This document shows positions 5 through 4,849 of a stretch of 5,002 nt of DNA, one piece after another (the stretch's first letter is position 1; each line of letters begins with the position of its first letter). The translations under genes and the position numbers were made by a program. Where the stretch lies: the NCBI GenBank assembly GCA_014859225.1, contig JACUUP010000104.1:1-5002 (forward strand), given 5' to 3'. The notes beneath the pieces are model-generated. The model saw only the letters and a program-made list of their open reading frames with translations. It had not been told where the DNA came from and ran no database searches. The stretch comes from Candidatus Aerophobota bacterium (lineage in GTDB: Bacteria > Aerophobota > Aerophobia > Aerophobales > B3-G15).

Positions 5-1636
5 CTATTCCAACTGAAATTTTTCTTTAGTAAAAAGCTCCAGGCAAGCATCTACCACATCCTCATCATAAAGTTTAGCTTGATTTTTTGATATCTCCTC
101 AAGAGCTTTTTCTATCCCCAGGGCAGGTCGATAGGGCCTGTGTGAGGACATAGCCTCAACTACATCCGCTACCGCTAAAATTTTTGCTTCAAGTAAAATA
201 TCTTTACCTCTGAGCTTTTGAGGATACCCAGAGCCATTCATCCTCTCGTGATGTTGTAGAATAATTTGAGATACTTGCCATGGAAACTCCAGACCTTTTA
301 TTATCTCACAACTAAACTCACAGTGCATTTTAATCATATTAAATTCACTGTCAGCCAATTTACCTGGCTTGCTAAGAATCTCCCCTGGAATATGCACCTT
401 ACCAATATCGTGAATCATTGAAGCTATGTATATAGCGTTAACCTGCTCTTGCAAAAGACCCATCTTCTTAGCTATCTCGCCAGCAAGTTTTGCTACCCGT
501 CGCTGATGAGCAGCCGTGTAAGGGTCTTTTGTCTCAACCATTCTCGTCAGAGCAAAAATAGTATTCTTTATAACTTTTTCCAGAGTTGCAATGCCATATT
601 GCATATCCCTTACTATTTGTTTTTGTTCAGAAGCAGAAGTAGTCAAAGATTTAGATAACATGGCTTGCGTGTAAGGCTGATATTTACCGGAACTGGATGC
701 TCTGACAGAGTACATGGCAACTTCAGAGTGTTTAAACAAAGTATCGCTATCCTCACCGTCGGCTGGAAAAACAGCAATACCGGCACTGGCAGTTATACAA
801 AACTGGTGCCCCCCAAGTATAAATGGTTTTTGAATAACATTTAAGATTCTTTTGGTAGCCATAACAGCGTCTTGCATCCATATAATTCCGGGTAAAATAA
901 GGGCAAACTCATCGCCTCCCATACGGGCAAGAATATCACTCTCACGCATCGTGGCTTTTATTCTGTCAACAATCCCCTGCAATACGTTATCTCCTCTTCT
1001 GTATCCTGCCTTATTATTAACCTGCTCAAAGTTATCAAGGTCAAAAGAGATTACGGCTAATCTTTCCTGATTTCTCCTGGCGTGAGCAATGGCAAAAGCT
1101 AAATTGTTATTAAATAACCATCTGTTGGGCAGGCCGGTGAGGACATCGTGAGTAGATACATAGGAAATCTCTTTTTCCTTTTGTTTGCGCTCAGTTATAT
1201 CAAGAAGATAAACCACACTGCTGTTTTTTCTCCCCTGCTTCCAAATTACAGATATAGTTGCAAGAACATCCTTAATCTCACCCTGTCTATTGATGAATTT
1301 AAACTCGTAGCTTCTGGAGACAGCATCATCTCTGGTAAAGTGATACACTTTTACTTTTTCCCAATCATCTTTTGCCACAAACTCTTTCCAATCTTTCTTA
1401 TTCTCTATCTCCTCTTTTAAATATCCGGAAAACTTCTCAAACTCTGCATTTACTAAATATATCCTCATGCCCTCATTGAGCACTGCTGTAGGAACACTGC
1501 TAATTTCAAAAATAGTTTGATATAACTTTTCCCATCGCTTACGTCGGGTTAAAAACCCGGATGTAAACACACCAGATATACCCAGACAAAAAGCTGCCAT
1601 TAGTTGTGCATATAACCTGGAGATAAAAAGAATCAT
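5..1636 (-). CDS. Membrane-anchored PAS-GGDEF-HD-GYP protein (c-di-GMP synthesis and breakdown)
   Basis: This 543-residue protein predicts both making and degrading cyclic di-GMP. A single hydrophobic segment lies at about residues 5-28, followed by basic RRKR that should face the cytoplasm. A PAS-like sensor spans about 38-150 and ends in the typical DITERKQ linker. The GGDEF domain (about 158-325) has intact GGDEF at 240-244, preceded by the product-inhibition I-site RESD at 231-234. Two usual positions differ: the ND of the nucleotide-binding helix is NN (207-208), and the following GH is GY (211-212). The HD-GYP domain (about 355-540) has HD-IGK at 409-413, HHERMNGSGYP at 462-472 and D491, so the metal site looks complete. 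Position 467 is N where D is common. The ATG follows AGGA (1645-1648) with 8 nt spacing, 27 nt after the radical SAM gene, so it may be the last gene of that transcript. The net direction of its activity cannot be read from sequence. Confidence 0.93.
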   Translation of the reverse strand: MILFISRLYAQLMAAFCLGISGVFTSGFLTRRKRWEKLYQTIFEISSVPTAVLNEGMRIYLVNAEFEKFSGYLKEEIENKKDWKEFVAKDDWEKVKVYHFTRDDAVSRSYEFKFINRQGEIKDVLATISVIWKQGRKNSSVVYLLDITERKQKEKEISYVSTHDVLTGLPNRWLFNNNLAFAIAHARRNQERLAVISFDLDNFEQVNNKAGYRRGDNVLQGIVDRIKATMRESDILARMGGDEFALILPGIIWMQDAVMATKRILNVIQKPFILGGHQFCITASAGIAVFPADGEDSDTLFKHSEVAMYSVRASSSGKYQPYTQAMLSKSLTTSASEQKQIVRDMQYGIATLEKVIKNTIFALTRMVETKDPYTAAHQRRVAKLAGEIAKKMGLLQEQVNAIYIASMIHDIGKVHIPGEILSKPGKLADSEFNMIKMHCEFSCEIIKGLEFPWQVSQIILQHHERMNGSGYPQKLRGKDILLEAKILAVADVVEAMSSHRPYRPALGIEKALEEISKNQAKLYDEDVVDACLELFTKEKFQLE

Positions 1637-1663: not shown

Positions 1664-3040
1664 TTAACTACTTTGCAGCTCAAGAGAAAAATCCTGTGCG
1701 TGCAGTTTTAGATAATCCTCAATCTGTTTTTTCCGAATTCCGCAAAGCTGTGTGCGTGTTTCCTCATTTACTCGCATAGCCTCATATCTGCAACCACCAC
1801 CACAGAGCAAGGCTATGGAACAGTCCCGGCACTCAGGGATTTTTAAAACATCTTGATTTCGCCACAAATTAAACTTCTCCTCATTTAATTCAAGATGAGG
1901 CACAAATCTTCCCATAACAAAAGAGGGGTTTCCTGCTGTCTCCGAACAGGGATACAAAAGACCATCGGCTCCAAAAACAAAAATGCCCGTTGAGCTTGCC
2001 TCGCAATAGTAAAAGTTTGGCTCATAACTTTTATAATCTTTTTCTATTATCTTTAATAAGTGTCCCAGGGTGCGGGAAATACGCATATCACTGAATATGT
2101 TTTTTAGCTCAGGCTCGTTTAATTTTAGCTTTTCAATTTTTTCTGTCAGAGTATACTCTAAAAATAAAGAGTTTTTTTCTCCTCCGTGAGTTTCCACCTT
2201 AGCCAGTCTTGCCCGAAAAATTTCTTTTTCATTCCAGCCTTTTTCTTTTATAAAGTCAGCAAGCTCTAAAAGAAAATGAACATTTTCCATATCCACATTG
2301 ACTCTCATCATAACGGCAATTCCTGAATCTAAGCTAAAATCAATACCTTTAACTATCCTCTCAAAAGTTCCAGCTCCACTAACAAATTTTCTTCTTTTGT
2401 TATGAATATGTGCCGGACCATCAACTGTAATCTGCATAATTTTCACACAACCGGGGTATTTTCTAAAAAGAGAGGTGAATTTAGACAGGTTAACTCCGTT
2501 GGTAATTATGCCCAGGGGGTATTTTCGCTCTGAGGCAAGCTTTAAAATATGCTCTATCAGCGGCTGAGTGCTTGATAAAAGTGGCTCTCCTCCAAAAAGT
2601 TGAATTTCAGCACCCGCAGCCTCATTTTTTTTTACAATCCTATCAAGTGCCTGAAACAGGAGGGTGATTTCCTCCAAGCTAAGACTTATGGGAATTTTTT
2701 CGTGAAGCTCTCCCTGGAAACAATACGTGCAGCGCAGGTTACAGGCATAAGTTGGACATATAACAGTTTTAAGCGGGCCATTAAATATTTTTTTCCTGTT
2801 TTGCTCCAGCATCCTGCGCAAAAGCTCATCTTCTTCGCTCTTGCTCTCAAAAAGATAAGCTCTTTTTTTTAAAACATCAACAAAGTCTTTATCAACAGAA
2901 AAAAAATCACCCTCCTTCATCCTCTGCAAGCTTTCATATCCTTTTCTATCCACTACATCAGCCGCCCCGGATAGTGTATTAAGAAGAATCCACTTTTCTT
3001 CTTTTAGTTGGTGAGTGAGCAAACGATGCGTAAGATGCAT
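1664..3040 (-). CDS. Radical SAM/SPASM peptide-modifying enzyme (putative RiPP maturase)
   Basis: This 458-residue enzyme is predicted to use S-adenosylmethionine and iron-sulfur clusters to install crosslinks or other radical modifications on a peptide. The radical SAM cluster motif is CNLRCTYC (C100, C104, C107), followed by GGEP at 150-153, which normally contacts SAM. The C-terminal SPASM domain is complete: C346, a G-x4-C at 360-365, the C-x2-C-x5-C-x3-C series C404, C407, C413, C417, and C433. It should therefore hold two auxiliary 4Fe-4S clusters. The first 80 or so residues (LLNTLSGAADVVD at 19-31) resemble the RiPP recognition element-like N-terminus of many Firmicutes SPASM peptide maturases. 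The gene starts 22 nt after the small Cys/Trp-rich peptide gene, its obvious candidate substrate. The ATG follows AGAAGGGGG with only 4 nt spacing. Anaerobic sulfatase-maturase-like enzymes share the motifs, but no sulfatase is present. The enzyme class is secure; the substrate and chemistry are inferred. Confidence 0.93.
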   Translation of the reverse strand: MHLTHRLLTHQLKEEKWILLNTLSGAADVVDRKGYESLQRMKEGDFFSVDKDFVDVLKKRAYLFESKSEEDELLRRMLEQNRKKIFNGPLKTVICPTYACNLRCTYCFQGELHEKIPISLSLEEITLLFQALDRIVKKNEAAGAEIQLFGGEPLLSSTQPLIEHILKLASERKYPLGIITNGVNLSKFTSLFRKYPGCVKIMQITVDGPAHIHNKRRKFVSGAGTFERIVKGIDFSLDSGIAVMMRVNVDMENVHFLLELADFIKEKGWNEKEIFRARLAKVETHGGEKNSLFLEYTLTEKIEKLKLNEPELKNIFSDMRISRTLGHLLKIIEKDYKSYEPNFYYCEASSTGIFVFGADGLLYPCSETAGNPSFVMGRFVPHLELNEEKFNLWRNQDVLKIPECRDCSIALLCGGGCRYEAMRVNEETRTQLCGIRKKQIEDYLKLHAQDFSLELQSS

Positions 3041-3044
3041 TTAA

Positions 3045-3053
3045 CCCCCTTCT
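3045..3053 (-). promoter_or_regulatory. Ribosome binding site of the radical SAM gene
   Basis: The minus strand reads AGAAGGGGG, then TTAA and the ATG. The G-run is a usable but imperfect Shine-Dalgarno with short spacing of 4 nt. It lies in the 22-nt gap after the peptide stop codon, so some translational coupling to the peptide gene is possible. No hairpin that would lower enzyme output relative to peptide is visible in this gap. Confidence 0.55.
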
Positions 3054-3062
3054 AACTAACTT

Positions 3063-3206
3063 TTAACCTATCCACCAGCATATATTCCAGCAGCATAAAG
3101 GACCAGGTCCACCGGAATCTAACTTATTTTCCTCGCGGCAACTTTCACTTTGCAAATCAAGTTGCCTGTGCCACAGTTTCTCATCGGGCATCATACTTTG
3201 AATCAC
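3063..3206 (-). CDS. Putative RiPP precursor peptide, Cys/Trp-rich C-terminus
   Basis: This 47-residue peptide starts at GTG (3204-3206). The start is chosen because AAGGAGGTGA ends 5 nt upstream of it. Extending the frame to a TTG at 3303-3305 would run through a promoter-like AT-rich stretch with no ribosome binding site. Residues 1-31 are charged and polar and look like a leader, with LWHRQLDL at 11-18 a possible enzyme docking helix and one Cys at 23. A GG at 32-33 precedes the presumed core PGPLCCWNICWWIG (34-47), with Cys at 38, 39 and 43 and Trp at 40, 44 and 45. CWNI and CWWI form a tandem repeat. The gene sits directly before a radical SAM/SPASM enzyme, which suggests thioether or carbon-carbon crosslinks within the core. 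I do not recognise a named family. A membrane-active or signalling peptide are both possible roles. The gene is short enough to be missed by automated annotation. Confidence 0.78.
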   Translation of the reverse strand: MIQSMMPDEKLWHRQLDLQSESCREENKLDSGGPGPLCCWNICWWIG

Positions 3207-3211
3207 CGCTC

Positions 3212-3221
3212 TCACCTCCTT
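3212..3221 (-). promoter_or_regulatory. Strong Shine-Dalgarno that fixes the peptide GTG start
   Basis: The minus strand reads AAGGAGGTGA, a near-perfect complement to the 16S rRNA 3' end. The GGAGG core is 8 nt from the GTG at 3206. The in-frame ATG pair a few codons further in is about 20 nt from the core, too far. This site is the main reason for calling a 47-residue peptide rather than an 80-residue one, and it predicts high peptide expression. Confidence 0.88.
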
Positions 3222-3233
3222 ATCGTATATTTT

Positions 3234-3254
3234 CTTTGTATAACCTTTGTGTAA
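3234..3254 (-). repeat. Two 10-bp direct repeats, candidate operator of the peptide gene
   Basis: On the minus strand TTACACAAAG (3245-3254) and TTATACAAAG (3234-3243) differ at one position and are spaced by 11 bp, about one helical turn. They begin at the end of the predicted -10 element and cover the likely transcription start, a typical position for a repressor. The upstream BlaI-family protein is an obvious candidate ligand, although that family usually binds inverted TACA/TGTA sites rather than direct repeats, so the pairing is uncertain. Confidence 0.5.
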
Positions 3255-3280
3255 TTTATCATAAAAAATAAAAATGTCAA
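3253..3280 (-). promoter_or_regulatory. Predicted sigma-A promoter of the peptide-radical SAM genes
   Basis: On the minus strand a consensus TTGACA (-35; 3275-3280) is followed after 16 bp by TAAATT (-10; 3253-3258). The -10 has a TG one base upstream (extended -10) and matches 4 of 6 consensus bases. The spacer is T-rich. Transcription would start near 3246, giving a leader of about 40 nt to the GTG. It lies just after the M56 gene stop codon, so the peptide can be expressed separately from the regulator genes. Confidence 0.68.
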
Positions 3281-3316: not shown

Positions 3317-4402
3317 CTAAAATATCTGAATCTTGTAAAAAAATACACGGATATGGATAAATACCTGGGGGTACAAAAGAAGAAAAACAATGAATCCCAT
3401 TAATATCCTTTTACCCCGGGACATGCGCTCATCACTTATAGCTTTAAAATCTATGAGAGGTTTAATTCTTTCGGTTAGGGATTTTCCCGGTGCTAAAAAT
3501 TTTTGGGTAAAAAAAGACTGGTGCATGGGAAGGGATTTTTTTCTCTCGCTCATCAACTTTGCCGTCTTGAGAAGAGCAGAGGCGAGTGGTTTGGAGTCGC
3601 TAAGTAGCTTTGCTACCGCCCTATCCACTTTTTTTTCTCTTTCCAAGCAAACTTTCATAAAGCTTAAATAAGCAAAGGGGCTAAACAGGAGCAAATCCTT
3701 CAAGATAACAGGTATCCATTGCCAGAGAGTATCTTTTTTCTGGATATGCAAAAACTCATGTGCAAGCACCGCTTCTTTCTCCTCAGATGTAAGATGAGCT
3801 AATATATAGAAGGGACAAACCATGAGCGGGTTTTTTACCCCGATAGAAAAGGGGCTCTCGTATTTTTCTCTGGTTATGAGTAGCCGCACCCGGGCAGGAA
3901 TTTTTTCCTGCAGCCGGGCAAAAATATCTGAAAGTTTATCATCTTCATCTTTTGCAAAAGATGACTGTCTGGACAAGTCTTTACAGAAAAGATAATAGGA
4001 CCTCCATCTCCAGAAAAGAAAAATACCCGCCACTGCAAGAATCAAAATCAGGCTAACACACATATTTATATCAGTTGCGTAAATATCAATTTTCCCCGGA
4101 TGAGTCTCAATGTGCCAGAGATGGGCTGGAATAAAATCCATGGGGTCGGGAAGCTGCAAATTGATAGCTACCGGAGCATATATACTGTATGGCAGGGGAA
4201 AAGTCCCTCTAATAAGAACAACAAGAGGCTTTAGCAGGGCAACAAAAAATAAAATTCCCCGCAGCCGAGCCTCTTCAATTTTGAATAACCTGATAACTCC
4301 TGAAACTAAAAGGAGCATGGTAAAGGAAAGTATTAAGGCAGGAGTGATATGATAAATCGCAATACGTCGCACTAACTCCACCAAAGCAAGGATGGCATCC
4401 AT
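3317..4402 (-). CDS. M56 family (BlaR1/MecR1-like) membrane metallopeptidase without sensor domain
   Basis: This 361-residue membrane protease belongs to the family of BlaR1 and MecR1, which respond to a signal by starting proteolysis that removes a BlaI-type repressor. Hydrophobic segments are visible at about 15-37, 49-65, 113-132, 230-247 and 333-350. The zinc site HEFLH is at 215-219 within VLAHEFLHIQKKD. The later CLEREKKVDRAVAKLL (252-267) corresponds to the conserved stretch that supplies the Glu ligand. After the last membrane segment only about 10 residues remain, so the penicillin-binding sensor of true BlaR1 (about 600 residues in total) is absent and the signal is unlikely to be a beta-lactam by that route. 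It starts 18 nt after the repressor gene, with no clear Shine-Dalgarno before the ATG, which suggests translational coupling or a slightly different start. Its target is inferred from pairing; cleavage of the neighbouring peptide is an alternative. Confidence 0.9.
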   Translation of the reverse strand: MDAILALVELVRRIAIYHITPALILSFTMLLLVSGVIRLFKIEEARLRGILFFVALLKPLVVLIRGTFPLPYSIYAPVAINLQLPDPMDFIPAHLWHIETHPGKIDIYATDINMCVSLILILAVAGIFLFWRWRSYYLFCKDLSRQSSFAKDEDDKLSDIFARLQEKIPARVRLLITREKYESPFSIGVKNPLMVCPFYILAHLTSEEKEAVLAHEFLHIQKKDTLWQWIPVILKDLLLFSPFAYLSFMKVCLEREKKVDRAVAKLLSDSKPLASALLKTAKLMSERKKSLPMHQSFFTQKFLAPGKSLTERIKPLIDFKAISDERMSRGKRILMGFIVFLLLYPQVFIHIRVFFYKIQIF

Positions 4403-4420: not shown

Positions 4421-4849
4421 CTAACTTTGCTTTTGCCCTAATTTGCTCCTTTCCTCATCTAAGAGTTTTTGCAGTTTTTCTATCTCCTCGGGATTGCGGG
4501 CAATTTCTCTTTGAATCAGGCGGGATATTAAATCTATCGTGCCTTTTTTATACATTTTATCTTCATAAGAGCCAAACCTGCCCAGGTCCTTTTCCTCAAT
4601 CAGAGGGCAGTAATGGTATATCCCGTCCACTTTTTTCCGCTCTAAGATACCCCGGGTGATTAAACGGTTCAAAACCGTGTAAACACTACTTTTGGGAAGG
4701 CTTTGCTCTTCAGAGAGAATTTCAAAAACATCCCCTGCGGGTATTCCATCTTTTCCGTAGCGAAAAATCAAATGCATCATTTCTGTCTGAAGAGGTCCAA
4801 GCCGTCCCTTCCAGGACTTTACCCAGCGCCTACTTTTCTTTTTTTTCAA
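4421..4849 (-). CDS. BlaI/MecI/CopY-family winged-helix transcriptional repressor
   Basis: This 142-residue DNA-binding protein has the size and layout of BlaI/MecI repressors, which bind as dimers and are inactivated by proteolysis. A winged helix spans about residues 17-82: the LGPLQTEMMHLIF helix, the recognition helix region LPKSSVYTVLNRLITRGIL (51-69) and the wing ending in GIYHYCPL (76-83). The remaining roughly 60 residues are mostly charged and helical, as in the dimerisation domain of the family. The N-terminus MKKKKSRRWVK is unusually basic. The start is TTG (4847-4849), supported by a strong GGGAGGTG 5-7 nt upstream and no better ATG. It lies 18 nt before the M56 protease gene, the standard repressor-protease pairing. 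It is predicted to regulate its own operon and possibly the peptide promoter, but no full TACA-NN-TGTA operator is visible. Confidence 0.92.
   Translation of the reverse strand: MKKKKSRRWVKSWKGRLGPLQTEMMHLIFRYGKDGIPAGDVFEILSEEQSLPKSSVYTVLNRLITRGILERKKVDGIYHYCPLIEEKDLGRFGSYEDKMYKKGTIDLISRLIQREIARNPEEIEKLQKLLDEERSKLGQKQS

Follow-up and report, generated by a model that had tools for sequence, protein, structure and literature searches.

Gene order and features of the window

The window analysed here is a whole contig of 5,002 bases (G000:C238) from a draft genome of 1.8 Mb in 273 contigs. Read along the minus strand, it carries in order a tRNA-Phe gene (4958-4884), a gene for a BlaI/MecI-type repressor of 142 aa (4421..4849; Pfam PF03965, 63.3 bits), one for a BlaR1-type M56 membrane metalloprotease of 361 aa (3317..4402; Pfam PF05569, 87.1 bits) with its HEFLH motif at 3746-3760, a 47-codon peptide gene (3063..3206), a gene for a radical SAM (rSAM)/SPASM peptide maturase of 458 aa (1664..3040; Pfam PF04055, 58.2 bits) and, 27 nt downstream of the maturase gene, an ORF with domain matches to a PAS-GGDEF-HD-GYP protein (5..1636). 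That BlaI, M56, the precursor peptide and the maturase form a four-gene RiPP cassette of an unnamed family is well supported by sequence comparison and structure prediction. An earlier note on this DNA had described a two-gene locus; its pairing of peptide and maturase stands, while the M56 and BlaI genes of the conserved cassette had been overlooked.

That the contig belongs to this genome is supported by the tRNA-Phe, which is 97% identical to that of a genome of the same family, and by an exact 55-base overlap between the contig end and contig C77 of the same genome. The terminal ORF of the adjoining C77 is transposase-like (L271 8811-9689). The cassette starts about 35 bp after the tRNA-Phe gene. 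Four related genomes carry tRNA-Phe inside a tRNA cluster (Met-Val-Asp-Phe-Thr), so the site beside tRNA-Phe in the window may be an insertion site.

The precursor peptide

The peptide gene comprises 47 codons and a stop, starts with GTG at 3206 and ends 22 nt before the maturase ATG at 3040. A near-perfect Shine-Dalgarno sequence, AAGGAGG (3215..3221), lies 8 nt before the GTG. These features agree with the earlier description of the gene. The peptide, MIQSMMPDEKLWHRQLDLQSESCREENKLDSGGPGPLCCWNICWWIG, is rich in Cys and Trp and contains four cysteines, three of them in the core. A promoter-like element of sigma-70 type, TTGACA-16-TAAATT, is found just 5' of the gene (3253..3280); it is weak evidence, because the scan that detected it yielded 8 sites where shuffled sequences gave 11.4 by chance. 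Similar elements were read by eye 5' of two other precursors (TTGACA-N17-TATACT in L015, from Geothermocultor, and TTGACA-N17-TAAAGT in L016), as were short dyads upstream of the same two, for which no claim is made. A search of precursor upstream regions for exact palindromes revealed no BlaI operator in common.

Alignment of the window peptide with 26 family peptides revealed two conserved features: a leader that opens with M(I)KSLN-x-LW at the N-terminus, and a core of the form CC[WF]-x(2-4)-C. Most precursors begin M(I)[KR]S[LI]N, and in the leader LW motif (residues 11-12, 3171..3176 in the window) the tryptophan is present in 27/27 peptides and the leucine in 25/27. The core, CCW-NI-CWW in the window (residues 38-45, 3072..3095), consists in all 27 of a CC pair, then an aromatic W or F, then a third cysteine after 2-4 residues. 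Residues following the core W show no conservation, and the linker between leader and core is variable, which blunts counts of synonymous and non-synonymous changes in close pairs. The GG to which the note had drawn attention in the leader is not conserved among the family peptides. A strong Shine-Dalgarno sequence is common to most family precursors, and ATG, GTG and TTG start codons interchange at one aligned position.

Conservation of the peptide frame among relatives, on which the note had made its reading depend, was borne out by a profile built without the window peptide. This profile scored the window peptide at 23.7 bits, against a maximum of 10.0 bits among decoys (9,971 ORFs from other loci). 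The peptide had no match in Pfam or NCBIfam. A single-sequence scan of genome contigs was negative, and the first 60 relatives yielded one distant match. Three further peptide matches (E 0.1-0.4) were discarded: one in another genome of the order (L008) and one elsewhere in the window's genome (L009) proved to be fortuitous frames lying on other genes or on the strand opposite them; a third, also in another genome of the order (L007), was set aside on its E-value. The gene is so short that gene callers can easily miss it. Judged by its sequence, the precursor is genetically encoded, conserved and situated beside a modifying enzyme, as is characteristic of a RiPP.

The radical SAM/SPASM maturase

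By its cysteine motifs the enzyme is a member of the rSAM/SPASM maturase superfamily. The CX3CX2C cluster motif (C100/C104/C107, 2720..2743) is invariant in 56 sequences, and all seven SPASM cysteines are present, in agreement with the note (C346, C365, C404, C407, C413, C417 and C433, 1742..2005) and are invariant or nearly so in the alignment of 56 homologues.

An AlphaFold2 model of the enzyme, computed from the 56-sequence alignment, had a mean pLDDT of 91.3 and a pTM of 0.90. At its N-terminus three strands (residues 7-11, 17-21 and 26-30) are followed by three helices (32-42, 51-59 and 67-87), all at pLDDT 91-97, an order that we take to be that of the RRE winged helix. Residues 1-87 (2780..3040) are therefore predicted with high confidence to form an RRE-like domain, in line with the resemblance noticed earlier. 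The best match among solved structures was CteB (5wgg; enzyme residues 4-451, Z 26.5), which is also the top PDB match by sequence; TigE (8vpo) aligned over residues 1-456 (Z 23.9), and both alignments run through the RRE-like domain. Together with anSME, these matches span Z 24-26.5, compared with Z 16.5 for EpeE.

Enzyme and peptide alike fell below the cut-off of every named maturase or precursor family in Pfam and NCBIfam, consistent with the earlier view that the system belongs to no class that could be named. The closest NCBIfam models are mostly maturases of cysteine-containing peptides: CefB (NF038107; 152.5 bits, cut-off 600), TIGR04463 (145.7, cut-off 525), Clo7bot (123.4, cut-off 600), geopeptide (122.3, cut-off 400) and PapB (106.6, cut-off 340). 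The SCIFF model (TIGR03974) scored 86.3 bits against a cut-off of 425, and the cyclophane-forming YhhB was a weak match at 66.5 bits.

Clade, co-occurrence and distribution

When GTDB contigs were scanned with an alignment of six sequences, the nearest enzymes came from Candidatus Geothermocultor (40% identity; assigned by the NCBI taxonomy to Actinomycetota, Aquicultoria) and from two MAGs, one of Chloroflexi and one of Thermoleophilia. In each of the three, a short ORF with the pattern of the window peptide lies just 5' of the enzyme gene. Relatives of these three genomes were then searched, which added 28 loci, taken with their flanks. In a quick tree of 115 rSAM/SPASM enzymes, made without bootstrap, the window enzyme falls in a 33-member clade (SH-aLRT 99).

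Co-occurrence of peptide and enzyme had been named beforehand as a check on the pairing. A recognizable precursor was found at 29 of the 33 clade members, and in three of the other four the sequence breaks off early, the contigs ending 11, 38 and 245 bp upstream of the matched enzyme (L223, L232 and L235). The fourth, L025 from Armatimonadota, has the enzyme and M56 and no recognizable precursor. A CC[WFY]-x-C peptide preceded by a Shine-Dalgarno sequence was detected next to none of the 82 related enzymes that fall outside the clade.

Occurrence of the cassette is patchy: it was found in Actinomycetota, Chloroflexota, the window's order and probably Armatimonadota (L025, with no visible precursor). 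At E <= 1e-80 the enzyme was missing from each of 16 other genomes of the window's order, and among 386 genomes of many families four matched, the window's included, the other three more weakly. This patchiness suggests that the cassette has spread horizontally. Matches on viral contigs were distant rSAMs and were left out.

Other peptides were also seen outside the clade. A sister clade (L018, L021, L023, L024, L027, L029 and L030) has a different, unnamed family of precursors, of the approximate form MKSL-xKK...QCC(A/S)K-S-xx-(V/I)AGCHD; those of L018 and L021 had no match in NCBIfam, and in L018 and L029 the precursor follows a methyltransferase-like gene (a Pfam match in L018). On a Muribaculaceae plasmid (L011 5333-5476), a 47-aa peptide ending CFTCTLCFTCGEFL lies just after an rSAM/SPASM gene and precedes a large gene resembling an outer-membrane receptor.

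M56, BlaI and neighbouring genes

M56 adjoins the family enzyme in all 29 clade loci with enough flank; the remaining four (L223, L231, L232 and L235) run up against a contig edge. None of the 82 enzymes outside the clade had M56 as a neighbour, as judged with a profile of three family members that a very distant M56 could escape. BlaI lies upstream of and adjoining M56 in 21 family loci, and six loci (L219, L225, L226, L227, L233 and L234) have M56, precursor and rSAM without BlaI. Where M56 and rSAM genes are divergent (L217, L225, L227 and L234), the precursor is on the M56 side. For rSAM, M56 and BlaI, pairwise identity in one protein goes with that in the others (rho 0.66-0.83, with 0 of 2,000 permutations as high), a figure that includes the shared ancestry of the hosts; M56-BlaI distances gave rho 0.83. 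Clustering of neighbouring genes revealed no further constant partner and no transporter conserved in the main cassette.

Residues H215, E216, H219, E256 and D260 of M56 are invariant. A Pfam search of M56 found no transpeptidase (penicillin-binding sensor) domain, and the BlaR1 equivalog model scored 58.3 bits against a cut-off of 400. A structure model of M56 from three sequences was too poor to use (pLDDT 50.5). In one subclade a second BlaI-type repressor gene lies directly 3' of the rSAM gene (L211, L212, L215, L216, L218, L220, L221, L222 and L223).

In 8 of 20 genomes the cassette has a gene for an HD-GYP protein, often GGDEF/HD-GYP, no more than 6 kb away (1.06 expected, P ~1.5e-5); counted by lineage, the figure is 6 of 11 (1.0 expected, P ~8e-5). 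Instances include 5-1636 in the window, L017 911-2812, L209 6551-8548 and G062:C12:4914-5390, among others. In L017 the reading frame of the rSAM continues into the end of a GGDEF domain and an HD-GYP domain, with loss of the SPASM C-terminus, either a real fusion/deletion or a misassembly. The PAS-GGDEF-HD-GYP protein is a possible, not obligatory, partner of the cassette, and a link to cyclic-di-GMP is possible.

Variant cassettes lack M56. In L243 (G1030, a 6.8 Mb genome), the peptide MSSENQFKTRSVNDDKDLWTELFDQVETLENRDEMACINLCCWNCCFQI (5568-5717) has the same leader and core pattern. It is followed by two rSAMs in tandem, an M50-like peptidase (24.5 bits, where the Pfam cut-off is 27.2) and an ABC transporter of MacB type, with neither M56 nor BlaI. 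This peptide and that at L245 6641-6754 share a leader Trp and a CC-x-C core, and are accompanied by tandem or single rSAMs in the absence of M56/BlaI. A membrane metallopeptidase thus seems, from the gene content, to replace M56 in the L243 variant, which favours a processing role for M56; M50 proteases process epipeptides and pearlins (PMC10885120).

Proposed function and alternatives

The reading that we consider fairly probable is that the cassette makes a RiPP under BlaI control: its Cys-rich core would be cross-linked, probably through thioethers, and M56 would process it. BlaI would repress the operon until M56 or the product lifts repression. The RRE-like domain would bind the leader through its conserved LW motif, and the enzyme would take hydrogen from core residues and join the core cysteines there as thioethers, in the manner of sacti- or ranthipeptides. 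M56, which lacks the beta-lactam sensor, would then cut the leader at or in the membrane, releasing a small hydrophobic product, which may be an antimicrobial or a signal. The enzyme very probably cross-links the core, as we infer from the sequences; that the links are probably thioethers is argued by analogy, since CteB, the best fold match, forms thioethers and the closest NCBIfam models are mostly maturases of Cys peptides.

M56 and BlaI, from their genomic association, probably either process the peptide or sense it. M56 enzymes are known to act with BlaI in sensing, and a processing role for M56 is therefore our own deduction. A serious rival, which we hold to be a tentative possibility, is that the RiPP is the same and M56/BlaI are its sensor-regulator: M56 would sense the modified peptide, or a stress arising from it, and relieve BlaI, giving a self-induced signalling or immunity loop. 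Adjacency of BlaI and M56 in the 21 loci, the correlation of their distances and the second BlaI after the rSAM in one subclade speak for it, but six loci keep M56 with peptide and rSAM and have no BlaI, and M56 is without a sensor domain. We lean towards processing because M56 persists without BlaI and because M50 seems to stand in for it in the variant. The BlaR1 protease domain is described as facing the cytoplasm (PMC9834060), which would give M56 access to the modified precursor or to BlaI, and M56 may both process and sense. A self-regulating class of RiPP, in which a sensor-less M56 both carries out maturation of the cross-linked CCW peptide and, by means of it, lifts repression by BlaI, is a speculative extension that we regard as doubtful; if it were true, a signalling pair of the beta-lactam type would serve a peptide signal across several phyla.

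Rather unlikely, in our judgement, is the formation of carbon-carbon (cyclophane) cross-links at the core Trp instead of Cys thioethers. Every peptide has Trp or Phe after the CC pair and cyclophane-forming maturases such as YhhB match weakly; however, the three cysteines are the most constant core residues, the residues after W are not conserved, and neighbours in sequence and fold are mostly Cys-peptide or thioether maturases. Other rSAM RiPP enzymes, EpeE among them, epimerize their substrates. That the enzyme epimerizes or edits residues without cross-linking, or that the product binds a metal or cluster through its cysteines, is improbable: CC-x-C could bind metal and EpeE is among the fold matches, but CteB, TigE and anSME align far better, and the peptide is very short and hydrophobic. 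Finally, although short ORFs turn up often (the window has 40 with 30 aa or more), the notion that this one is a chance frame and that the rSAM acts on another substrate is already refuted, barring unknown bias, by conservation as seen in the left-out profile test, the motif in 27/27 aligned peptides, the conserved position and ribosome-binding site and the start codons that alternate at one place.

Comparison with known systems

RiPPs made by rSAM/SPASM enzymes are a known class; the precursor family, and the link between it and M56/BlaI, appear new to the databases and open-licence papers searched, where absence is not proof. We found no open-licence paper reporting M56 or BlaR1 with a radical SAM and a precursor peptide or SPASM. 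One candidate precedent (PMC6807378) was rejected, as BlaI, M56 and rSAM are there in separate elements, and a review of RiPP leader proteases does not mention M56 (PMC10885120). The cassette represents a RiPP family that is compact, widespread across several bacterial phyla and amenable to test, and its four genes would fit on one small plasmid.

CteB/CteA is alike in having an rSAM/SPASM enzyme with an N-terminal RRE, matched over 403 residues, and a short Cys peptide adjoining it. The window enzyme is, however, only 20% identical to CteB, the cassette has M56/BlaI neighbours, and CteA/SCIFF has six cysteines in 45 residues where the window peptide has three in its CCW-x-C core. With 86.3 bits against a cut-off of 425 and four cysteines in the whole peptide, the sequences do not place the system among the SCIFF ranthipeptides. 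CefA/CefB (NF038107) and TIGR04463 provide the top-scoring NCBIfam maturases, but the window precursor lacks a cysteine at every fifth residue and the partner genes differ; the score of 152.5 bits against 600 and the CC-x-C pattern speak against assignment to CefA/CefB, and the scores under cut-off against TIGR04463, geopeptide, Clo7bot and PapB. EpeX/EpeE/EpeP likewise combines a short precursor, an rSAM and a membrane metalloprotease, there an M50 enzyme thought to cleave and export the product (PMC10885120). In contrast, the window protease is M56, the enzyme has an RRE-like and a full SPASM domain, the core is Cys-rich, BlaI is present and the main cassette has no ABC transporter; given this protease and a precursor with no NCBIfam match, the system does not appear to be an epipeptide.

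BlaR1/BlaI and MecR1/MecI resemble the window's M56 and Penicillinase_R pair (87.1 and 63.3 bits) with its HExxH motif. Unlike them, the window M56 has 361 aa and no penicillin-binding sensor domain, and the pair is linked to a RiPP, not to a beta-lactamase. M56/BlaI, known mainly from beta-lactam resistance, would thus be tied to the maturation or sensing of a peptide. An M56 RiPP protease, if confirmed, would be a new kind of processing enzyme; otherwise BlaI-type repressors would have a new signal, the peptide.
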